DNA from: Saccharothrix algeriensis
GTDB lineage: Bacteria > Actinomycetota > Actinomycetes > Mycobacteriales > Pseudonocardiaceae
DNA length: 64,000 bases
Assembly (NCBI RefSeq): GCF_016907655.1
Contig: NZ_JAFBCL010000001.1
Location: 4,498,001 to 4,562,000 of the forward strand
Direction: 5' to 3'
The position numbers and the translations under genes were made by a program. The notes beneath the pieces are model-generated. The model had not been told where the DNA came from, ran no database searches, and saw only the letters and a list, made by a program, of their open reading frames with translations. This document shows, piece after piece, positions 8,659 to 18,593 of this stretch (the first letter of the stretch is position 1; each line of letters opens with the position of its first letter).

Positions 8659-10158
8659 ATGAGCGAACTGATCCGCGACACCGCGGGCGAACTGGCCGCG
8701 AAGATCGCGCGCCGCGAGGTCTCCGCCGCAGAGGTCGCGCAGGCCCACCTCGACCGGATCGGCGAGGTCGACGGCTCGGTGCACGCGTTCCTGCACGTCG
8801 ACGCCGAGGGCGCGCTCGCGGCGGCCCGCGCGGTCGACGAGGAGATCGCCGCCGGCCGGGCCGTCGGGCCGCTGGCCGGCGTCCCGCTGGCGCTCAAGGA
8901 CGTGCTGACCACCGAGGGCGTGCCGACCACGTGCGGGTCGAAGATGCTCGCCGGCTGGGTGCCGCCCTACGACGCCACGGTCACCCGCAGGCTGCGCGAG
9001 GCCGGCGTCGTGATCCTGGGCAAGACCAACATGGACGAGTTCGCGATGGGCTCCTCCACCGAGAACTCGGCCTACGGCCCGACCCGCAACCCGTGGGACC
9101 TGGACCGCGTGCCCGGCGGCTCGGGCGGCGGCTCGTCGGCCGCGCTGGCCGCGTTCGAGGCGCCGCTGGCGATCGGCACGGACACCGGCGGCTCCATCCG
9201 CCAGCCCGCCGCCGTCACCGGCACGGTCGGCGTGAAGCCCACCTACGGCGGCGTGTCCCGCTACGGGCTGGTGGCGTTCTCCTCGTCGCTGGACCAGGCC
9301 GGGCCGTGCGCCCGCACGGTCCTGGACGCGGCGCTGCTGCACGAGGTCATCGCGGGCCACGACCCGCTGGACTCCACCTCCATCGACGCCCCCGTCCCGC
9401 CGGTCGTCGCGGCTGCCCGCGAGGGCGCGTCCGGCGACCTGGCCGGCGTGCGGGTCGGCGTGGTCTCCCAGCTGGGTGGCGACGGCTACCAGCCGGGCGT
9501 GCTGCGCTCGTTCGAGGCGGCTGTGGCGCACCTCGAGCAGTTGGGCGCGGAGGTCGTCGAGGTGTCGTGCCCCAGCTTCGACCACGCCCTGTCGGCCTAC
9601 TACCTGATCGCGCCCAGCGAGGCGTCGTCGAACCTGGCCCGCTTCGACGCCATGCGCTACGGCGCCCGCCACGGCGACGACGGCACCCGCAGCGCCGAGG
9701 AGGTCATGGCCATCACCCGCGACCGCTGCTTCGGCCCGGAGGTCAAGCGGCGCATCATGATCGGCACCTACGCGCTGTCGTCGGGCTACTACGACGCCTA
9801 CTACGGCTCGGCGCAGAAGGTCCGGACGCTGATCAAGCGCGACTTCCAGCAGGCGTTCGAACGGGTCGACGTGCTGGTCTCGCCGACGACGCCGACCACG
9901 GCGTTCCGCCTCGGCGAGCGCACCGACGACCCGCTGGCCATGTACAAGGCGGACCTGTGCACCGTCCCGGCGAGCATGGCGGGGATGCCCGCCATGAGCG
10001 TCCCGAGCGGACTGTCCGACGAGGACGGCCTGCCGGTCGGGTTGCAGCTCATGGCCCCGGCGCTGCAGGAGCACCGCCTGTACCGGGTCGCGGCGGCCTA
10101 CGAGGCGACCCGCGGCACGGTCATCGCGGACGTCCCGGTCCTGGCGGGTGCGCGATGA
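8659..10158 (+). CDS. gatA: Glutamyl/aspartyl-tRNA amidotransferase subunit A (amidase)
   Basis: A 499-residue amidase-signature protein that hydrolyses glutamine and channels ammonia to GatB. The Ser-cis-Ser-Lys catalytic set is visible: lysine in PLALKDVL, the glycine/serine-rich [11 protein letters not shown], and [12 protein letters not shown] with the nucleophile region. The end has the conserved [14 protein letters not shown] at 8659 is preceded by GGAGGCGGA. Its TGA overlaps the ATG of the next small gene (ATGA at 10155-10158), so translation is coupled. Length and order are normal for actinobacteria. Confidence 0.97.
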
Positions 10159-10346
10159 GGACGGCACGCGCGGTGTTGGCCCTCGTGGGCGCGGTCGGCG
10201 CGGCGACCAGCGCGTTCTCCACGCTGAAGTCGGCCCGCGGCAAGAAGGACGGGCTGGCGCTCGTCAACGCGGTCGCGAGCATCCTGGTCGCGGTCACCGG
10301 CGCGGCGCTGGCCGTGCGCGGGCTCCGGAAGGGCGGTGCGGCATGA
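10155..10346 (+). CDS. Small hydrophobic protein embedded between gatA and gatB
   Basis: A 63-residue protein with two hydrophobic helices (about residues 5-20 and 34-55) separated by a basic turn SARGKKDG, ending [10 protein letters not shown]. It overlaps gatA by ATGA at its start and gatB by ATGA at its end, so all three genes should be translated together in fixed proportion. I know no function; in mycobacteria this position holds pfkA instead. It could anchor or modulate the amidotransferase at the membrane, or simply ride in the operon. The double overlap and clean codon use argue it is a real gene. Confidence 0.72.
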
Positions 10347-11845
10347 CCTCCGTGGACGAGCTGATGGACTACACCGAGGTCCTGGAGCGGTTCGACCCGG
10401 TGCTGGGCCTGGAGGTGCACGTCGAGCTGCACACGGCCACGAAGATGTTCTGCGGGTGCGCCAACCGGTTCGGCGGCGAGCCCAACTCGCACGTCTGCCC
10501 CACCTGCCTGGGCCTGCCGGGCTCGCTGCCGGTGGTCAACGGCAAGGCGGTGGAGTCGGCGATCCGCATCGGGCTGGCGCTCAACTGCTCGATCGCCGAG
10601 TGGTGCCGGTTCGCCCGGAAGAACTACTTCTACCCGGACATGCCGAAGAACTTCCAGACCTCCCAGTACGACGAGCCGATCGCGTTCGACGGGTGGCTCG
10701 ACGTCGAGCTGGACGACGGCGAGGTGGTGCGCGTGGAGATCGAGCGCGCCCACATGGAGGAGGACACCGGCAAGTCGCTGCACGTCGGCGGCGCGACCGG
10801 CCGCATCCACGGCGCCGAGCACTCGCTGCTGGACTACAACCGGGCGGGCGTGCCGCTGATCGAGATCGTCACCAAGCCGATCACCGGCACCGGCGCGCGC
10901 GCCCCGGAGGTGGCCCGCGCCTACGTGACGGCGCTGCGCGACCTGCTCAAGGCGCTGGACGTGTCCGACGTCCGGATGGACCAGGGCTCGCTGCGCTGCG
11001 ACGCGAACGTGTCGCTGATGCCCAAGGGCGCCACCGCGTTCGGCACCCGCACCGAGACCAAGAACGTCAACTCGCTGCGCAGCGTCGAGCGGGCGGTGCG
11101 GTTCGAGATGACCCGGCAGGCGGCGGTGCTCGCCGCCGGCGGCGCGGTCACCCAGGAGACGCGCCACTTCGACGAGTCGACCGGCGGCACGTCCTCCGGC
11201 CGCACCAAGGAGACCGCGGAGGACTACCGGTACTTCCCGGAGCCCGACCTGGTGCCCGTCGCGCCGTCCCGGGACTGGGTGGAGCAGCTGCGCGGCACCC
11301 TGCCGGAGCTGCCGTGGGAGCGCCGCAAGCGGGTCCGGCGGGAGTGGGACCTGACCGACGCGGAGCTGCGCGACCTGGTCAACGCCGGCGCGGTGGACCT
11401 CGTGGCGGCCACGGTGGAGGCCGGCGCGACCCCGGCCGAGGCCCGTTCCTGGTGGGTGGCCTACCTGACCAAGGAGGCCAACGCGCGGGGCGTGGAGCTG
11501 GGCGAGCTGGCCGTCACCCCGGCGCAGATCGCGCGGATCATCGCCCTGGTCAACGCGGGCGAGCTGACCAACAAGCTGGCCCGCGAGGTCGTGACCGGCG
11601 TGCTGGCGGGCGAGGGCGAGCCGGAGGCCGTCGTCGAGGCCCGCGGCCTGAAGGTCGTCTCCGACGACTCGGCGCTGGAGAAGGCGGTGGACGAGGCGCT
11701 GGCGGCGCAGCCCGACGTGGCGGCCAAGATCCGCGACGGCAAGGTGGCGGCGGCGGGCGCGATCGTCGGCGCGGTCATGAAGGCGACGAAGGGGCAGGCG
11801 GACGCGAAGAAGGTGCGCGACCTGGTGATCGCCCGCTGCTCGTAG
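10343..11845 (+). CDS. gatB: Aspartyl/glutamyl-tRNA amidotransferase subunit B
   Basis: A 500-residue GatB, the subunit that binds the mischarged tRNA and phosphorylates its side chain before amidation. Visible: the zinc-site cysteines in MFCGCANRF and [14 protein letters not shown], the kinase-site region [24 protein letters not shown], and the C-terminal YqeY-like tail ending [19 protein letters not shown]. Starts within the stop of the preceding small gene. Ends 59 bases before a long hairpin. Confidence 0.97.
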
Positions 11846-11904
11846 TCCCGAGCGCAGCCCCGCGCACGGCCCGCGCGGTCGTCCGGGGCGCACCGCGCAA
11901 GTCC

Positions 11905-11938
11905 GCGACGGGCCCGGCCACTCGGCCGGGCCCGTCGC
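11905..11938 (+). terminator. GC-hairpin terminator after gatB
   Basis: A perfect 15-bp stem (11905-11919 with 11924-11938) closed by the loop ACTC. No U-tract follows, as often in high-GC actinomycetes. Confidence 0.6.
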
Positions 11939-12142
11939 GCGTCCGGGCCTGCCGTGACCCCCACCCGCCCGGCCGCGCGCACCCCGCCTGCCGCGCGGCG
12001 CTCCCCGGTGGGGCGCGGTGCCGCCGGGCCGGTGTCGCGCCCGCGGCGGAGGCTGCGCCGCGGGCGCCCATTCCACCCGACCGGTCGGTCGGGTCATCCC
12101 CTTCTTGCGGTCTCCGCCGCGCCTGCGCTGTGTTAAGTCGTT

Positions 12143-12163
12143 CACCCAAACGGGTGGTAACGT
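12143..12163 (+). promoter_or_regulatory. Candidate promoter/operator upstream of the GGPYQxH-repeat gene
   Basis: An inverted repeat CACCC-N4-GGGTG (12143-12156) directly precedes a -10-like TAACGT (12158-12163). Start of transcription near 12170 would leave a ~195-base leader. The rest of the 11939-12366 interval has no gene I can support; it contains one short palindrome CCGACCGGTCGG at 12077-12088. Confidence 0.35.
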
Positions 12164-12240
12164 CGCCCTAAAAGACGGCTCGGCCCAGGTCAAAGTGCCT
12201 CGCTGACCGCGGAGTGGTTGCTCTGGGTGAATTTACCCCG

Positions 12241-12260
12241 CACAGATGCGTCCATCTGTG
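12241..12260 (+). repeat. Inverted repeat in the leader of the GGPYQxH-repeat gene
   Basis: CACAGATG-CGTC-CATCTGTG, a perfect 8-bp stem with a four-base loop, unusually AT-rich for this window. It could be a dyad operator or an mRNA hairpin 106 bases before the start codon. Confidence 0.5.
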
Positions 12261-12366
12261 TAAGGCTTGAGCCGTTCGGTGGGGCCGGGGGGCCGGCCGG
12301 ACGATCAACCGCACCAGCCGTGCACCCCCGCCTCGCCGCGGGGTTCGTTGTAGGGGAGGACAACGC

Positions 12367-12696
12367 ATGTCTGCTGAAACCGATCCCAAGCTCGTCGAGG
12401 AGATCGACGCCATCGGCGACGCCGTCGCCGAGGCGACCGACACCGCCGGTGTCGCGCTGCGGGTGTCGATCGGCGGTGAGCGGAAGGGCGGCGGCGGTTC
12501 GGTGCCCGAGGGGGGTCCGTACCAGACGCACAGCATGCCCGGCGGCGACCCCGACGACCCGGACGGCGGCCCGTACCAGCCGCACGAGCCGGACCCGGGC
12601 AAGACGCAACCGTTGACCCCGACCGGCGGTCCTTACCAGTCGCACTCCGCCCCGGAGGCGATCGCCGCCGCGGGAGCCGTCGCCGCGAAGAACTAG
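12367..12696 (+). CDS. Small GGPYQxH-repeat protein, partner of the TPR-CHAT protease gene
   Basis: A 109-residue protein of unknown family. Residues 1-32 look like an amphipathic helix plus strand (KLVEEIDAIGDAVAEATD). The rest is glycine/proline-rich and disordered, with three copies of a motif GGPYQxH at residues 49-55, 67-73 and 87-93 (x = T, P, S), spaced 18 and 20 residues apart. There is no signal peptide, membrane segment or cysteine. A strong SD (GGGGAGGA) sits six bases before the ATG. The stop falls in a 17-bp tandem repeat. The next gene, 195 bases on, encodes a CHAT-domain protease; the regular exposed motifs make this protein a candidate substrate, adaptor or effector. That link is inference from position only. 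Confidence 0.8.
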   Translation: MSAETDPKLVEEIDAIGDAVAEATDTAGVALRVSIGGERKGGGGSVPEGGPYQTHSMPGGDPDDPDGGPYQPHEPDPGKTQPLTPTGGPYQSHSAPEAIAAAGAVAAKN

Positions 12697-12780
12697 TCGC
12701 CGCGAAGGACCAGTCGCCGCGAAGGACCAGTCGCCGCGAAGGACCAGTCGCCGCGAAGAACCGGTCACCGCGAGGGAATT
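12679..12780 (+). repeat. 17-bp tandem repeat across the 3' end of the small-protein gene
   Basis: Five to six copies of GTCGCCGCGAAGGACCA: 12679-12695, 12696-12712, 12713-12729 and 12730-12746 nearly identical, 12747-12763 and 12764-12780 diverged. The first copy encodes the last residues VAAKN and its variant end supplies the TAG stop. The unit is not a multiple of three, so copy number or point changes would alter the C terminus. The following 110 bases up to the CHAT gene are GC-rich with a small palindrome TTCCCCG-CCG-CGGGGAA and no gene. Confidence 0.85.
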
Positions 12781-12891
12781 CCCCGCCGCGGGGAACTCCT
12801 CGCCGCGGGGACCAGCGGTGGGGCCGGCGCCGAGCCGGTCGCGCTGCCAGCCGGACGGGTGGCAGTGCGACCGGCTCGCCTGTGCTCTCAT

Positions 12892-15504
12892 ATGAGGGTG
12901 CCTCTGGCGACCGCCGACCCCGTGGGGGATGCCCGCGAACTGCACCGCAAGGGCAAGGCATCCGCTTCCGCGAACCGCTACCTGACCGCCACCCGCATCC
13001 TGCGCCGGGGGCTCGCCCTGCTCGACGGGGCCGCCGGCGGCCCGGACCCGGTGGGCCGGCTGGAGGTCCGCATCAGGCTGCTGATCACCCTGTCGTTCTG
13101 CCACGCCGAGACCGAGGGCCTGGAAGCGGGCCTGACCCGGCTCGCGACCGCCCGCGACCTGCTCGCGGACCTGCCCGGTGGCGCGCTGCGCGACGAGCTG
13201 ACCAGCCTCGTCAACGGCGTCCAGGGCGTCCTGCTGTTCCGCGTGGGGCGCATCGAGGAGGGCATCGCCTACGTCGACCTCGACGTCGCCCACCACGAAC
13301 GCCTGCTGGCCGCCGCCGACGACCCCACCGCCGTCGTCCAGTCCCTGGTCACCACGCTCACCAACCGCGGCAACGCCTACGGCGAGGTCCACCGCATCGC
13401 CGAGGCGGTGCGCGACCTCGACCGCGCCGTCGAGCTGGCCGCCGAGCACGACCTGCCGCTGCGCGCCGCGATCGCCACCCACGCGCTGGGCAACGTGCTG
13501 CGCCTGGCCGGCGACATCCCGCAGGCCCTGCGCCGCTACCAGGAGGCCAACCGCGCCTTCCGCGAGCTGGAACCCGGGCTGCTGCTGCGCCTGGGCATCG
13601 ACCAGGCCGAGGCGATGATCAGCGTCGGGCTGGCCGACGAGGCGGGCCGGCTGCTCGACGAGGTGCTGCCCGAGCTGCGCCGCCAGCGCATCGGCCAGGA
13701 CGTCGCCGAAGCCGAGCTGTACCGGGGCGCGGCGGCCCTGGCCGACGGCGACCTGGCGACCGCCCGCCGCATGGCCAGGTCCGCGCAGCGCCGGCTCGTG
13801 CGCCGCGGCAGCCCCGCGTGGGCGGCCGTCGCGGGCCTGATCGAACTGCGCGTGGACGTGCTGCGGGCCATCGAGTCCCGCCGCTCGTCACCGGCGGTCC
13901 TGCGCCGCGCCCTGGAGCTCGCGGCCCGGCTCGACGCGCTGCGGCTGCCCGACCAGGCCACCGTGGCCACCGTGCTGGCCGCGCGCATGGAGGTGCGGCA
14001 CGGCAACCTCGACAGCGCCGCCGACCTGCTGCGCGGCGTGGCGGGCGCCCGGCGCTTCGCCCCCATCGACCACCGGATGCTGCTGCGCCTGTGCCGGGCG
14101 GAACTCGCGCTGGCGCGCGGCAACCGGCGGGTGGCGCTGGCCCAGGCGAAGGCGGGGCTGGCCGAGCTGGGCCGGCTGCGCGACCGGATGGGCGGCCTCG
14201 AACTGGTCTCCGGCACCGCGCTGCACGGTCGCGAGCTGGGCGACCTGGCCGTGCGGCTGGTGCTGCGCGGCGGCGACTCGGCCGCGACGGCCCGCCGCCT
14301 GTTCACCTGGCTGGAGCGCACCCGCGCCCAGCTCTACCGCTACGACCCGGTCGAGTCCACAGTGGACTCGGCGCTGAGCGAGCGGATCGCCGAGGTCCGC
14401 CGGCTCAGCCGCGCCCTGCTGCGCGCCCGGCTGGACGGCCTGGCCACCGGGCAGCTGGAGGACCGGCTGGCGGCCGGCCAGCGGGAGGCCATGCGCCTGG
14501 GGTGGAGCGAGAGCCCGTGGGGCAGGCCCCGCCCGGTGGCCACCGCCGACGAGGTGGTGGCCCGGCTCGGCGACCGGGCCCTGGTGAGCTTCGCGGCGTG
14601 CGGCGACGAGCTGGTGGCCGTCGTCCTGGCCGGCGGGCGGGTCCGGATGCGCCGCCTCGGGTCGGCCGAGGAGGCGACCGAGCGCGCCCGCCGCCTGCAC
14701 GCCGACCTCAACGCCCTGGCGCCCGACCACCTGCCGCCGCCGCTGGCGGAGGTCATCGCGGCGTCGGCCCGCCGGGAGGCCGAGAACCTGGACCGCCTGC
14801 TCCTGCGACCCCTGGCGGGGCTGATCGGGCAGCGGGAGCTGGTGGTGGTGCCGACCGGGGCGCTGCACGTGGTGCCGTGGGGCGTCCTGCCCACGTGCGC
14901 GAACCGCCCGACGGTGGCGGTGCCGTCGGCGACCTCGTGGCTGTCCACCACCCGGGCCGACGGCGAGCAGACCTCCGGCGTCCTGCTGGTCCGGGGGCCG
15001 GGCCTGCAGGCGGCGCAGGGCGAGATCGACCGCCTGGCGGGCTACCACCGCGACGCCAAGCTGCTGGGCGTGGCCGACGCCAAGGTCGGCTCGGTGCTCG
15101 ACTCGCTGGACGGGGTGGACCTCGCCCACATCGCGGCGCACGGCGAGCACGAACCGGAGAACGCCCTGTTCTCCCGGCTGGAGCTGGTCGACGGCGCCCT
15201 GTTCGCCCACGAGGTGGGCCGGGTCCGCCGCCCGCCGCGCCGCGTGGTGCTGGCGGCGTGCGAACTGGCCCTCAACCGCGTGCGGCCCGGCGACGAGCCG
15301 CTGGGCTTCGCCGGCGCCCTGCTGGCGGGCGGCGCGCGGACGGTCATCGCCGCGTCGAGCCGGGTGGGCGACAAGCCCTCCGCCGAGGCGATGGCCGACT
15401 TCCACCACAACCTGGCCGCCGGCGCCTCCCCCGCGGTGGCCCTGGCCGAGGCGGTGGCGGTGGACCCCCTGCGCCGCCCCTTCGTCTGCCTGGGCTCGGG
15501 CTGA
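12892..15504 (+). CDS. TPR-CHAT protein (caspase-family protease with tetratricopeptide repeats)
   Basis: An 870-residue protein. Residues ~15-480 are helical TPR-like repeats (for example RGNAYGEVHRIAEAVRDLDRA and HALGNVLRLAGDIPQALRRY). Residues ~600-870 are a CHAT domain, the bacterial caspase/separase-like protease fold, with RELVVVPTGALHVVPWGVLP, the catalytic histidine H750 in HIAAHGEHE and the catalytic cysteine C790 in VVLAACELALNR both kept. CHAT proteases cleave protein targets, often in defence or cell-death modules, with the TPR part sensing or recruiting. No signal peptide. ATG at 12892 chosen; an in-frame GTG at 12859 would add 11 residues and neither has a clear SD. The partner is probably the GGPYQxH protein upstream. 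A hairpin terminator follows. Confidence 0.9.
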   Translation: MRVPLATADPVGDARELHRKGKASASANRYLTATRILRRGLALLDGAAGGPDPVGRLEVRIRLLITLSFCHAETEGLEAGLTRLATARDLLADLPGGALRDELTSLVNGVQGVLLFRVGRIEEGIAYVDLDVAHHERLLAAADDPTAVVQSLVTTLTNRGNAYGEVHRIAEAVRDLDRAVELAAEHDLPLRAAIATHALGNVLRLAGDIPQALRRYQEANRAFRELEPGLLLRLGIDQAEAMISVGLADEAGRLLDEVLPELRRQRIGQDVAEAELYRGAAALADGDLATARRMARSAQRRLVRRGSPAWAAVAGLIELRVDVLRAIESRRSSPAVLRRALELAARLDALRLPDQATVATVLAARMEVRHGNLDSAADLLRGVAGARRFAPIDHRMLLRLCRAELALARGNRRVALAQAKAGLAELGRLRDRMGGLELVSGTALHGRELGDLAVRLVLRGGDSAATARRLFTWLERTRAQLYRYDPVESTVDSALSERIAEVRRLSRALLRARLDGLATGQLEDRLAAGQREAMRLGWSESPWGRPRPVATADEVVARLGDRALVSFAACGDELVAVVLAGGRVRMRRLGSAEEATERARRLHADLNALAPDHLPPPLAEVIAASARREAENLDRLLLRPLAGLIGQRELVVVPTGALHVVPWGVLPTCANRPTVAVPSATSWLSTTRADGEQTSGVLLVRGPGLQAAQGEIDRLAGYHRDAKLLGVADAKVGSVLDSLDGVDLAHIAAHGEHEPENALFSRLELVDGALFAHEVGRVRRPPRRVVLAACELALNRVRPGDEPLGFAGALLAGGARTVIAASSRVGDKPSAEAMADFHHNLAAGASPAVALAEAVAVDPLRRPFVCLGSG

Positions 15505-15512
15505 GGCCGACC

Positions 15513-15538
15513 CCGCCCATCCCTCGCGGGAGGGGCGG
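15513..15538 (+). terminator. Hairpin after the TPR-CHAT gene
   Basis: 11-base arms (15513-15523 with 15528-15538) with one A/G mismatch and a TCGC loop, in the 50 bases between convergent genes. Confidence 0.5.
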
Positions 15539-15554
15539 TGGACCGGCGGCGCGG

Positions 15555-16733
15555 TCAGTCCCGGCCGTTCTCCGAGCCGGACTGGCGGACGACGACGGCC
15601 ACCCGGTCGTCGCTGGACACCGGGGCGCCGCCGGCGTCCTTGTTGACCGTGCCCACCAGCGCGGCGTTGTCGTCGATCGCCACCATCGCGCCGATCCGCC
15701 CGTAGCCGCCCTCCTCGTCCAGGTAAGGCTCCGGCTTGCCGGTGAAGCCGCCATCCGGGTTCATCGGCAGCACCAGCGTGCCCGGCGCCCTCGACGTGCC
15801 CAGCCAGACCGCGTTCGACAGCGCCGCGCAGCCGCTCACCCCCGGCTTGTCCGGCCACGACCACGCCGGGTCGCCCAGCGGCCTGCCCGCCTCCACCCGG
15901 TACAGCAGGTCGCCGGCCGCGCCCGCGTCGGTCACCCACGTCTTCGAGCCGTCCCCGGACACGCACAGCCCGCCCGGCGACCGCAGGCCCGACGCCAGCA
16001 CCCGCGAGCCCTCCGTCGGGTTGCCGCGCGCCGGCTGCCCCGACCCGTCGATCCGCAGCACCTTCCCGGCCAGCGACGCCGGGTCGGCGGCCGACGCCGG
16101 GTCGCCCGCGTCGCCGGTGGCCACCAGCAGCGCGCCGGTCCGGTCGTGGGCCAGCACGCCCCGGTTGCCCGACGGGCCCCTCGGGATGCCGGTCAGCACG
16201 GGCTTGGGCACGTCACCGGGCGCGATCCGCAGCACGCGGTTGTCGGTCGGCGTCGTCAGGTACACGTAGACGAGCTGGTCCTCCGGGTAGGTCGGCGACA
16301 GCGTCAACCCGGTCAGCCCGCCGTCGGACGACGCGTCCACCTCGAACGCGTGCAGCACCACCGGCTCCACGTCCTTGGTGACCCGCACCAGCCGACCCGT
16401 GGCGCGCTCGGTCGCCAGCGCCGTCACCGCGCCCGTCGTCTGGTTCACGTCCGTCAGCGCCACCGCCGACACGGGTGACAGGCACGTGCCGACGACCGCC
16501 GGGTTGAAGTCCTTGCAGCCCTGCGGCGGCGGCACGGGGGTCTGCTGCCCCGGCCGGCCCTGGCCGGGGCTGCCCGGCAGCTGGCCGGGCAGCTCGGGCT
16601 CGGGCCCGGCCTGCGGCGTGAGCTGCGGCGCGGGGCTCCACCCGGTCGGGGCCGGCTGCTCGGGGAAGCTCGCGCAACCGGCGGCCAGCAGGCCGACGGC
16701 GCAGCCGACCAGCACCCCACGGAGACGTGACAC
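15555..16733 (-). CDS. Lipoprotein of the glucose/sorbosone dehydrogenase beta-propeller family (LppZ-like)
   Basis: A 392-residue exported lipoprotein. The N terminus has a short basic start, hydrophobic core and lipobox LLAAGC, followed by a ~50-residue Pro/Gly/Gln-rich linker. From about residue 80 the repeats of a six-bladed PQQ-type sugar dehydrogenase propeller are visible (GGLTGLTLSPTYPEDQLVYV, GSRVLASGLRSPGGLCV, DLLYRVEAG). The family oxidises sugars with PQQ in some members, but many actinobacterial LppZ-like proteins have no shown activity. GTG start at 16733 places the signal sequence correctly. It occupies the same place relative to gatB and doxX as lppZ (Rv3006) in mycobacteria. 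Confidence 0.85.
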   Translation of the reverse strand: MSRLRGVLVGCAVGLLAAGCASFPEQPAPTGWSPAPQLTPQAGPEPELPGQLPGSPGQGRPGQQTPVPPPQGCKDFNPAVVGTCLSPVSAVALTDVNQTTGAVTALATERATGRLVRVTKDVEPVVLHAFEVDASSDGGLTGLTLSPTYPEDQLVYVYLTTPTDNRVLRIAPGDVPKPVLTGIPRGPSGNRGVLAHDRTGALLVATGDAGDPASAADPASLAGKVLRIDGSGQPARGNPTEGSRVLASGLRSPGGLCVSGDGSKTWVTDAGAAGDLLYRVEAGRPLGDPAWSWPDKPGVSGCAALSNAVWLGTSRAPGTLVLPMNPDGGFTGKPEPYLDEEGGYGRIGAMVAIDDNAALVGTVNKDAGGAPVSSDDRVAVVVRQSGSENGRD

Positions 16734-16744
16734 GGTCGCCAAGG

Positions 16745-17650
16745 CTAGGCGCGCGGTCGTGAACGTGAGGTGAGCAGGTCGGGCGCGCCCCGCCCCGCGG
16801 CCGGGCCGCGGGCCTCCTCCAGCGCCCGGTCCACCGCCCGGTCCACCGCCGCCGCGCGGTCCAGCAGCAGCACCAGCTCGTCCACCACCACCCCCGGGGC
16901 CTCCAGCGGCAGGAAGTGCGTGTTCGGCAGCACCCGGACCCGGGCCTGCGGCAGCCCCGCCACCGGGCCGACCACGCTGTCCGGCGCCGCCAGCCAGTCG
17001 TACCGGCCGGCCAGCACCGTCGTGGGGCACGTCACGCCGGTCAGGTCCAGCCTCGGCGCGCTCCCCAGCGCGAGCGCCAGCGTGAAGTACCAGCCCCAGT
17101 CGTGCTCCAGGAACCGCCGCAACGACTCCACCACCGGCCACGGCCCGCCCGGCGCCGGCACCCGGTGCAGCACGGCGCCCAGCAGCGGGCCCACGCGCCG
17201 CAGGGCCTTCGCCGACGCCACCCCGACCAGCCTGCGCACGTCCTCCGGCACGCCCGGCAGGCCGAGGACGCCCGCGAACGGGTCACCCGGCGCGCCCGCC
17301 ACGAGCATCAGCCCCGACACCCGGTCGGGGTGGCGCAGCGCCAGCGCGGCGGCCACCGTGACGCCCATCGCCCAGCCCACCACCACGCACCGCTCGACAC
17401 CGCCCGCGTCCAGCACGGCCACCGCGTCGGCGACGTGGTCCCGCAACCCGATCCGCGCCGGGTCGGCCGGGCGGTGCGAACCCGGCGTACCGCGGTGGCG
17501 CCAGCCGTGGACGCGCGCGACCCGCAGCACCGGCCACGCGGTCGGCGCGGCGCCCAGCCCGGGGCTCAGCAGCACGTCCGGACCGTCCACGTCGGTGCGC
17601 CACGCCCCGATCCGGGTGCCGTCGTCGGAGAACACGACATGTTCCCGCAT
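16745..17650 (-). CDS. Alpha/beta-hydrolase fold protein with alanine at the nucleophile position
   Basis: A 301-residue alpha/beta hydrolase. The oxyanion region (LSPGLGAAPTAW), the acid (GRYDWLAAPDS) and the histidine loop (LPNTHFLPLEAPG) are in the expected order, but the nucleophile elbow GxSxG reads GWAMG, with A94 where serine is expected. The codon is GCG on the coding strand, two or more changes from the usual serine codons except TCG. Hydrolase activity of the ordinary kind is therefore unlikely; the protein could act as a ligand sensor or lyase-type enzyme. It lies 11 bases upstream of the lipoprotein gene on the same strand and is divergent from the 2-hydroxyacid dehydrogenase. Confidence 0.85.
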   Translation of the reverse strand: MREHVVFSDDGTRIGAWRTDVDGPDVLLSPGLGAAPTAWPVLRVARVHGWRHRGTPGSHRPADPARIGLRDHVADAVAVLDAGGVERCVVVGWAMGVTVAAALALRHPDRVSGLMLVAGAPGDPFAGVLGLPGVPEDVRRLVGVASAKALRRVGPLLGAVLHRVPAPGGPWPVVESLRRFLEHDWGWYFTLALALGSAPRLDLTGVTCPTTVLAGRYDWLAAPDSVVGPVAGLPQARVRVLPNTHFLPLEAPGVVVDELVLLLDRAAAVDRAVDRALEEARGPAAGRGAPDLLTSRSRPRA

Positions 17651-17666
17651 GGCCGACAGTGTGCCG

Positions 17667-17672
17667 TAGCGT
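17667..17672 (+). promoter_or_regulatory. -10-like element for the 2-hydroxyacid dehydrogenase gene
   Basis: TAGCGT, six bases before the GTG at 17679. Confidence 0.45.
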
Positions 17673-17678
17673 GCGGGT

Positions 17679-18593
17679 GTGACGCTTACCGTGTTGGTCC
17701 CCGACGACCTCGGCCTCCGCGTGCTGTCCGCTGTGGAGGGTGTGCGCCCGGTCCGGTACTCGGCGGGCGCCGAGCTGCCGCCCGAGGCCGCGCACGCCGA
17801 GGTCCTCGTGCCGAAGTTCCTCCAGGACACCGACCCGCGCGAGTTCTTCGGGCGGCTGCCTAAGTTGCGCCTGGTGCAGTTGCTGAGCGCGGGGGCGGAG
17901 CGGTTCATCGGGACCCTGCCCGACGGGGTGGCGCTGTCCACGGGCCGCGGCGCGCACGGCGGCAGCACCGCCGAGTGGGCGATCGGGGCGCTGCTGGCGG
18001 TCTACCGCGACTTCCCGGTGTTCGAGCGGGCGCGGCAGGAGCGGCGGTGGGACTACCACCTGACGGAGACGTTGCAGGACAAGGAGGTGCTCGTCGTCGG
18101 GGCGGGCGACCTCGGCGAGCAGTTCCGGCGGCGGCTGGAGCCCTTCGGCGCGACCGCGACGATGGTCGGCCGCACCGCGCGGGACGGCGTGCACGGGGTG
18201 GCCGAGCTGCCGGAGCTGGTCGGCCGGTTCGACGCGGTGCTGCTGGTCGTGCCGCTGACCGAGGAGACCGCGGGGCTGGTGGACGCCGCGCTCCTGGCCC
18301 GGATGAAGGACGGGGCGATCCTGGTCAACGCGGCGCGCGGGCCGGTGGTGGACACCGACGCCCTGGTGGCCGAGCTGGTGTCCGGGCGGCTGCGGGCGGC
18401 GCTGGACGTGACCGACCCGGAGCCGCTGCCCGCCGACCACCCGCTGTGGACCGCACCGGGCCTGTTCCTGACGCCGCACGTGGCCGGCTCCTGCACCGGC
18501 CACGCGGAGCGCGCCTACGCCGTGGTCGCGTCGGAGGTGGAGCGGTTCGCCCGCGGGGAGGAGCCGCGGAACCTGGTGCGCGGCGCCTACTGA
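17679..18593 (+). CDS. D-isomer-specific 2-hydroxyacid dehydrogenase family protein
   Basis: A 304-residue NAD(P)-dependent oxidoreductase. The Rossmann motif is VVGAGDLGEQF (about 142-152), and the catalytic arginine (NAARGPVVD), glutamate (DVTDPEPLP) and histidine (LTPHVAGSC) are all present. The family reduces 2-keto acids or oxidises D-2-hydroxyacids; the substrate is not evident. The N-terminal substrate domain is shorter and less conserved than in SerA. GTG start follows the -10-like element directly. It is monocistronic as far as can be seen and divergent from the nucleophile-less hydrolase. Confidence 0.88.
   Translation: MTLTVLVPDDLGLRVLSAVEGVRPVRYSAGAELPPEAAHAEVLVPKFLQDTDPREFFGRLPKLRLVQLLSAGAERFIGTLPDGVALSTGRGAHGGSTAEWAIGALLAVYRDFPVFERARQERRWDYHLTETLQDKEVLVVGAGDLGEQFRRRLEPFGATATMVGRTARDGVHGVAELPELVGRFDAVLLVVPLTEETAGLVDAALLARMKDGAILVNAARGPVVDTDALVAELVSGRLRAALDVTDPEPLPADHPLWTAPGLFLTPHVAGSCTGHAERAYAVVASEVERFARGEEPRNLVRGAY

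Follow-up and report, generated by a model that had tools for sequence, protein, structure and literature searches.

In Craspase (CASP), the type III-E CRISPR system of Csx29, Csx30 and RpoE/CASP-sigma, the protease Csx29 cleaves Csx30, which in turn binds and inhibits an extracytoplasmic function (ECF)-type sigma factor, according to PMC10028731 and PMC9729208. In the latter, CHAT proteases are also said to have their substrates commonly encoded close by, and separase to be restrained by securin, and in PMC8999054 ECF54 sigma factors are described in a conserved context of carboxypeptidase, subtilase and CHAT domains, with control by proteolysis proposed. Here, we analyzed a window of 64,000 nucleotides from Saccharothrix algeriensis (NZ_JAFBCL010000001.1, positions 4,498,001 to 4,562,000), in which a gene for a 109-residue protein with GGPYQxH repeats lies directly upstream of a gene for an 870-residue protein with tetratricopeptide repeats (TPR) and a CHAT domain. 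The small protein and an intact-dyad TPR-CHAT protein, probably of the separase/Csx29 type, are co-encoded behind a conserved leader and have remained together through divergence. The reading that we moderately favor is that of a dedicated two-protein module, consisting of a TPR-CHAT protease and a docked small partner. To our knowledge, no substrate is known for most of the CHAT and caspase-like proteases of actinobacteria. The features of the pair are as follows:

12367..12696, plus strand: 109-residue acidic disordered protein with an N-terminal helix and GGPYQxH repeats (open reading frame (ORF), profile, AlphaFold)
12511..12531, plus strand: GGPYQTH, motif copy 1, residues 49-55 (translation)
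12565..12585, plus strand: GGPYQPH, motif copy 2, residues 67-73 (translation)
12625..12645, plus strand: GGPYQSH, motif copy 3, residues 87-93 (translation)
12892..15504, plus strand: 870-residue TPR-CHAT protein, probable protease (ORF, Pfam, conservation, Foldseek)
12919..14190, plus strand: TPR superhelix, residues 10-433
14773..15453, plus strand: CHAT domain PF12770, residues 628-854 (Pfam)
15139..15141, plus strand: codon of catalytic His750, kept in 60 of 60 homologs
15259..15261, plus strand: codon of catalytic Cys790, kept in 59 of 60 homologs

The first-pass annotation, made from the letters alone, had described a 195-bp gap between the stop of the small gene and the start of the next, an 870-residue TPR protein, a terminal CHAT domain and intact H750 and C790, all of which were borne out by the ORFs, Pfam (CHAT 2.2e-29, TPR_12 3e-7) and an alignment of 60 homologs, where H746 is also invariant (60/60). 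With its His-Cys dyad behind TPRs, the protein is a probable member of the TPR-CHAT proteases (clan CD, CHAT branch). The three motifs of the small protein are likewise present, and their spacing, described as even, is nearly so (18 and 20 residues). AlphaFold predicted a helix at residues 7-25 and low-confidence coil elsewhere (mean predicted local distance difference test (pLDDT) 55.5), and Pfam, NCBIfam and PADLOC gave no match for this protein. A 17-bp tandem repeat of 5.8 copies (12679-12777) extends from the end of the small gene over much of the gap, which at 18 other GGPY loci measured 62-147 bp.

A profile of GGPY proteins (A2) was searched in 150 genomes of the family at E <= 0.001 and matched in 11, each match adjoining, by coordinates, an orthologous TPR-CHAT gene, while no orphan match was found in the 150 genomes. 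The pairing proposed in the first-pass annotation is thereby seen in 11 out of 11 cases, the opposite of GGPY-repeat homologs lying mostly without a CHAT neighbor. In these same genomes the best TPR-CHAT protein was at least 67% identical to that of the window among the matches listed, the next genome reaching 59%, and TPR-CHAT matches at 1e-10 were found in at least 99 of the 150 genomes and at least 33 of 46 genera. Matches of the window small protein itself with E > 1e-4 look like low-complexity chance matches, except at two loci (L021 and L024), which carry genuine GGPY genes beside TPR-CHAT.

Not every TPR-CHAT match listed in the 150 genomes was fetched. Of the loci sampled, 149 had a TPR-CHAT ORF, 106 were distinct after merging, and 80 of these had at least 45% identity to the window protein (L037 was left out because its ORF is incomplete, and L184-L186 stand outside the 106). 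The 80 loci fall into three kinds, namely 44 without linked sigma factor or subtilase (43 by script plus L078, where the small gene stands nearer to TPR-CHAT than the sigma match), 28 with a sigma factor and a protein of about 154 residues with a sub-threshold carboxypeptidase-regulatory match (CRD), and eight with an S8 subtilase, the identity of which was confirmed at L109. Under a strict rule (ATG-started ORF with a Shine-Dalgarno sequence, 40-200 bp upstream), a small gene precedes the TPR-CHAT gene at 37 of the 43 scripted loci, versus 0 of 43 in antisense, and relaxed start rules raise this to 43 of 43. The small upstream gene expected from the first-pass annotation is present, its sequence varying by clade, and counting L078 by reading, a small disordered gene lies directly upstream at 44 of 44 loci. 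The upstream ORFs listed for the eight subtilase-type loci include no small gene of this kind. At 13 orthologous loci (L059-L071), tblastn with sigma, CRD and S8 references gave no match within about 6 kb on each side. The pairing of small gene and TPR-CHAT gene is strongly supported by these observations. One TPR-CHAT homolog (L188, 42% identity) has Asn in place of the catalytic Cys, and no upstream small gene passing the rules was found there.

Could the two genes merely be neighbors, i.e. could the small gene be an unrelated, fast-evolving ORF sharing an operon with a TPR-CHAT protein that acts elsewhere? The small protein does diverge fast and differs among clades (over the 19 GGPY loci, mean identity is 76% for the protease and 49% for the small protein). 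Against this, the small gene is retained at all 44 loci over different motif types, orphan matches are lacking, and the motif is preserved through synonymous changes, the 55 motif copies of the 19 GGPY genes using 15 different 12-nt versions to encode GGPY/F. This number of DNA versions indicates that the motif is kept at the protein level and does not just reflect fresh DNA duplication. We therefore consider independent neighbors unlikely, and a direct physical pairing of the two proteins probable on the sequence evidence.

The small proteins carry clade-specific motifs, with GGPYQ/H/K or GGPF at 19 sigma-less loci, GPVHH/GPVQQ/GYHH (e.g. GPVHHQT) at six, and a Cys-tailed type at 18 plus L078; motif copy number varies between 1 and 13 across loci. 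At all 28 sigma-type loci a motif protein was found, by reading, upstream of the sigma gene, with e.g. PTGWDPY, PDGAWDP, PGGAYDP, PAGWEP, GIPHAE or GHHQTH, among others; the automatic motif label named only part of these 28 proteins, and two cases are weak (L107, with GATEPS repeats and an unclear start, and L180, with a single GGSHQTN). Twelve of the 28, including L090, L142 and L144, also have chagasin-type peptidase-inhibitor genes by tblastn (Pfam 2.7e-15 at L090), this family I42 gene being placed after the motif protein and before the sigma gene, at a distance of about 1.2-1.7 kb from the downstream TPR-CHAT gene. Such inhibitors would fit a regulated, restrained protease, though chagasins are known chiefly as inhibitors of papain-type enzymes. 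Repeat proteins of the GWDP/GAYD type have a conserved C-terminal stretch of about 70 residues, with tblastn matches at 13 of the 28 sigma-type loci (including L105, L106, L108, L142, L143, L144, L088 and L090), and Pfam found nothing in the one such protein tested. Two further sigma and CRD loci, L184 and L185, have an additional small motif gene between CRD and TPR-CHAT, with two copies each of PEGHIG and GYHDS.

In a FastTree tree of 105 TPR-CHAT proteins (where the label 'S8+sig+CRD' was set on S8 and sigma alone), the sigma-less proteins with a small partner form one group of 44 (support 100), which joins eight subtilase-type proteins (support 91). Partner kinds require 10 changes on this tree versus 46 in shuffles, and motif type tracks the tree as well. 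Among 20 more distant relatives, which come from the same class but other families or genera (L159-L178, 31-39% identity), 12 have a subtilase and a sigma factor upstream on the same strand, eight of them also with CRD, and the other eight lack the subtilase-sigma combination. These distant operons, which resemble ECF54 neighborhoods as assigned by context, suggest together with the published ECF54 context a probable descent of the window pair, by loss of the linked sigma gene, from ECF54-type subtilase-sigma-CRD-TPR-CHAT operons. The pair and its 44-member clade differ from such neighborhoods in having the small protein instead of a linked subtilase or CRD, and the ECF54 passage of PMC8999054 does not mention a small motif protein. 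The module would thus have been derived from operons of this type, with the sigma factor and the subtilase unlinked in the branch of the window and the small protein left as sole linked partner.

Another explanation would make the small protein a sigma-linked tag or an anti-sigma remnant, in which case the pair, as an orphan regulator of ECF54 type, still controls an unlinked sigma factor in trans. The motif proteins upstream of sigma at 28 of 28 loci (two of them weak, as above) agree with this, as do a sigma-bearing TPR-CHAT operon retained elsewhere in the same genome (L194) and the inhibition of its sigma factor by Csx30 described in PMC10028731. We hold it to be improbable, since nothing links the small protein directly to sigma and none of the 19 matches to the promoter-like element described below is at a sigma-type locus that was read. 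At least three more TPR-CHAT paralogs exist in this genome (6723331-6725913, 225920-228061 and 5149421-5151478), the first with the same promoter-like element and a Cys-tailed small gene and the second with subtilase, sigma and CRD matches upstream. PADLOC gave no defence model for the window TPR-CHAT protein, merely two chance-level Cas9 matches, and left the sigma, CRD and TPR-CHAT proteins of L055 unmatched. The subtilase beside TPR-CHAT at L109 (1627-3399) matches PADLOC subtilase models and, weakly, IetS models.

In an AlphaFold model of the TPR-CHAT protein, built on 11 sequences (mean pLDDT 69), the TPR superhelix is well modeled and the CHAT part poorly. Foldseek ranked separase first (E 6.8e-7) and Csx29 of Craspase (8eey_B) 20th (3.9e-5), with low TM-scores by query length of 0.16-0.31 on this model with its poor CHAT part. 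Like separase with securin/SCC1, the window pair appears to combine a helical-repeat superhelix and a caspase-like domain with a disordered, rapidly diverging partner; securins, too, diverge fast. It is bacterial and much smaller than separase. With Craspase it shares TPRs, a CHAT domain with a His-Cys dyad, a partner protein encoded alongside and, in relatives, a gene for an ECF-like sigma factor grouped with these. Csx29 is also the sole NCBIfam match of the protein, at 4.1e-4 and 19.3 bits, below the cut-off of 300. Unlike in Craspase, no Cas7-11 gene was seen among the window neighbors (9000-18500 read), no sigma gene adjoins the pair, and the partner is a disordered protein of about 100 residues with repeated motifs, which Csx30 is not.

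A VIA structure comparison is led, in its best 50 rows, by LGN, with the peptide-binding TPRs of Rap and NprR close behind. Because TPR folds resemble one another, this ranking shows only that a peptide groove in the TPR domain is plausible in the model, and as the rows cover mainly residues 6-464, the absence of Csx29 from these best 50 is uninformative on membership. The RRNPP receptors (Rap, NprR) share with the window protein a peptide-binding type of TPR and an adjacent cognate small gene. An alternative would be a peptide-signal system in the manner of Rap-Phr and NprR-NprX, in which the repeats would be copies of a mature peptide freed by proteolysis and sensed by the TPRs. We regard this as very unlikely: a hydrophobic segment is absent from all 43 small proteins (highest 15-residue mean 1.11), so that an export signal is not apparent; an exporter was not noticed either, although no search was aimed at one; and, unlike in Rap, the TPRs are fused to a protease domain. 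A gasdermin-type substrate was considered and rejected, since the small proteins lack a hydrophobic stretch. The helix followed by repeated segments in variable copy number also resembles the precursor of a ribosomally synthesized and post-translationally modified peptide (RiPP), with a helix leader, several cores and TPR-CHAT as leader peptidase. This is the least likely reading of all, as no modifying enzyme is present among the four window neighbors tested, the small proteins searched against Pfam gave just a single match, at chance level, and the core sequences vary among clades.

In the favored module, the small protein would dock into the TPR superhelix by its N-terminal helix and its repeated motifs (GGPYQxH here), motif copy number would set avidity, and the docked protein would feed or plug the CHAT active site. 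It could act as a substrate, like Csx30 for Csx29, which we put forward tentatively, or, with still less confidence, as a disordered pseudosubstrate inhibitor, like securin for separase; the two modes cannot be told apart from sequence. The 43 small proteins (52-145 residues) are acidic, with a median charge of -9, and TPR residues 191-440 of the 44 small-partner proteins have a median charge of +9. Protease and motif may also change together: for the split between GGPYQ/H and GGPYK/GGPFK, 17 of 19 fully separating protease columns lie in residues 1-185, compared with 11/48, 19/46, 27/118, 29/75 and 28/64 for five other splits. This co-change is suggestive only, as the boundary at residue 185 was set after the fact and on one branch. 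An unseeded search for a family-wide motif, made with 25 hand-picked proteins (several of them close relatives, none Cys-tailed), at first settled on the N-terminal Met region. Rerun after removal of the 15 N-terminal residues from all proteins and of the 75 C-terminal ones from five, it gave a 12-residue motif, approximately P/N-x-G-G/H/W-aromatic-...-P, with a likelihood of 189 versus at most 145 in 15 shuffles, related sequences inflating this likelihood; a motif of width 8 also exceeded its shuffles (122 versus at most 101).

Several points weigh against this reading of the pair. Splits nested within the K group lean towards residues 1-185 as well (20/36, 8/12, 5/9 and 2/4 columns), so that this region may simply evolve fast there. 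Charge complementarity was dropped as support because subtilase-type proteins without a small partner are equally basic (+10.5); the net charge of residues 1-190 shifts no single way where the motif has K in place of Q, and charge compensation was rejected too. The family-wide motif is degenerate, a regular-expression test alone is weak (19 of 25 proteins versus a shuffled mean of 7.4 and maximum of 16), and by reading no aromatic motif is present in small proteins of the Cys-tailed type (19 loci including L078), so the evidence for one docking code does not extend to all. Repeat scans for at least three copies found 22 of 80 in sense, 10 of 80 in antisense ORFs and 2 of 48 in unrelated 2-kb stretches; the antisense ORFs were rejected as an unfair control, since DNA repeats recur on the opposite strand. 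Lastly, the CHAT part of the model is mostly below pLDDT 65, and high Z values are usual for TPRs in this fold.

The pair is flanked by putative regulatory elements, the first-pass annotation having rightly placed dyads before it and a hairpin after it:

12248..12280, plus strand: conserved promoter-like block, with core TGTGTAAGGCTTGAGCCGTTCG at 12257-12278 (17-locus alignment, genome pattern searches)
12273..12303, plus strand: dyad/hairpin with a G-run loop, directly after the promoter-like block (folding, pair changes)
12346..12365, plus strand: hairpin whose loop holds the Shine-Dalgarno sequence AGGGGAGG, abutting the start codon (stem comparison across loci)
15513..15538, plus strand: terminator-like hairpin between the pair and a convergent GSDH-domain gene (folding)

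Upstream of the small gene, the promoter-like block stands out as a run of invariant columns in the 17-locus alignment. The genome of the strain (6.88 Mb) holds the core pattern twice, each time upstream of a TPR-CHAT gene (with one mismatch allowed, the reversed control pattern also gave one match), and 19 times in the 150 genomes versus once for the reversed control. Sixteen of the 19 matches lie about 300-640 bp upstream of TPR-CHAT among the matches listed, and the remaining three have no TPR-CHAT nearby among these, making the element nearly private to such operons. The pattern was picked by eye from loci already in hand, so its matches at those loci are not independent, whereas its rarity elsewhere is. 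With zero mismatches it covers three GGPY loci and 13 more, of which 11 were read as Cys-tailed and two lie outside the fetched set, and it is absent in exact form from the GPVHH loci and the Cys-tailed loci at the gatB site. A perfect 8-bp dyad, CACAGATG / CATCTGTG, at 12241-12260 overlaps the block, and its right half alone is well conserved among relatives.

The hairpin with the G-run loop has at least one two-sided change at 5 of 12 predicted pairs, and the stretch 12269-12308 folds at -22.7 kcal/mol (z -2.4). The Shine-Dalgarno hairpin reaches at least five pairs at 18 of 43 loci (shuffled flanks: mean 1.7, maximum 6), with a stem sequence that varies among clades, and its fold alone is unremarkable (z -0.7). 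Downstream of the pair, folding of 15502-15545 gives -24.6 kcal/mol (z -2.0).

The four window neighbors tested were an Amidase (gatA-like) and GatB, both upstream, the convergent GSDH-domain gene downstream, and a 2-hydroxyacid dehydrogenase (2-Hacid_dh_C). The pair had been taken for a lineage-specific insertion, which is only partly right: within the stretches fetched, gatB lies upstream at no fewer than 25 of the 44 sigma-less, subtilase-less loci, including loci with other motifs and all 13 orthologous loci L059-L071, so the location predates the GGPY motif, while the GGPY pair of L037 is found elsewhere, behind a Clp-ATPase-like gene (named by our own reading). In Saccharothrix coeruleofusca (L066, 4245-5111), gatB and the GGPY pair are separated by what we read as an XRE-type regulator gene.

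In the open-licence PMC literature, seen mostly as abstract openings, no recognizable description was found of a partner, disordered or with short motifs, for the TPR-CHAT proteins of actinobacteria. A broader possibility, which we offer as doubtful, is a bacterial system like separase and securin. It would comprise a large actinobacterial TPR-CHAT family, each member kept with its own disordered, quickly evolving partner, which would bind in the TPR groove and so gate the protease; receptor and motif would change together, copy number would tune the response, and a P-x-G-G-aromatic motif would have diversified into clade codes and replaced the sigma and subtilase outputs of older ECF54-type systems. 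Each protease of the family comes with a small, easily synthesized candidate partner, giving dozens of natural pairs with varied motifs. These make specificity testable by simple swaps and could reveal how a protease-partner code evolves, and the family could show how a sigma-linked proteolytic switch turns into a two-gene switch.

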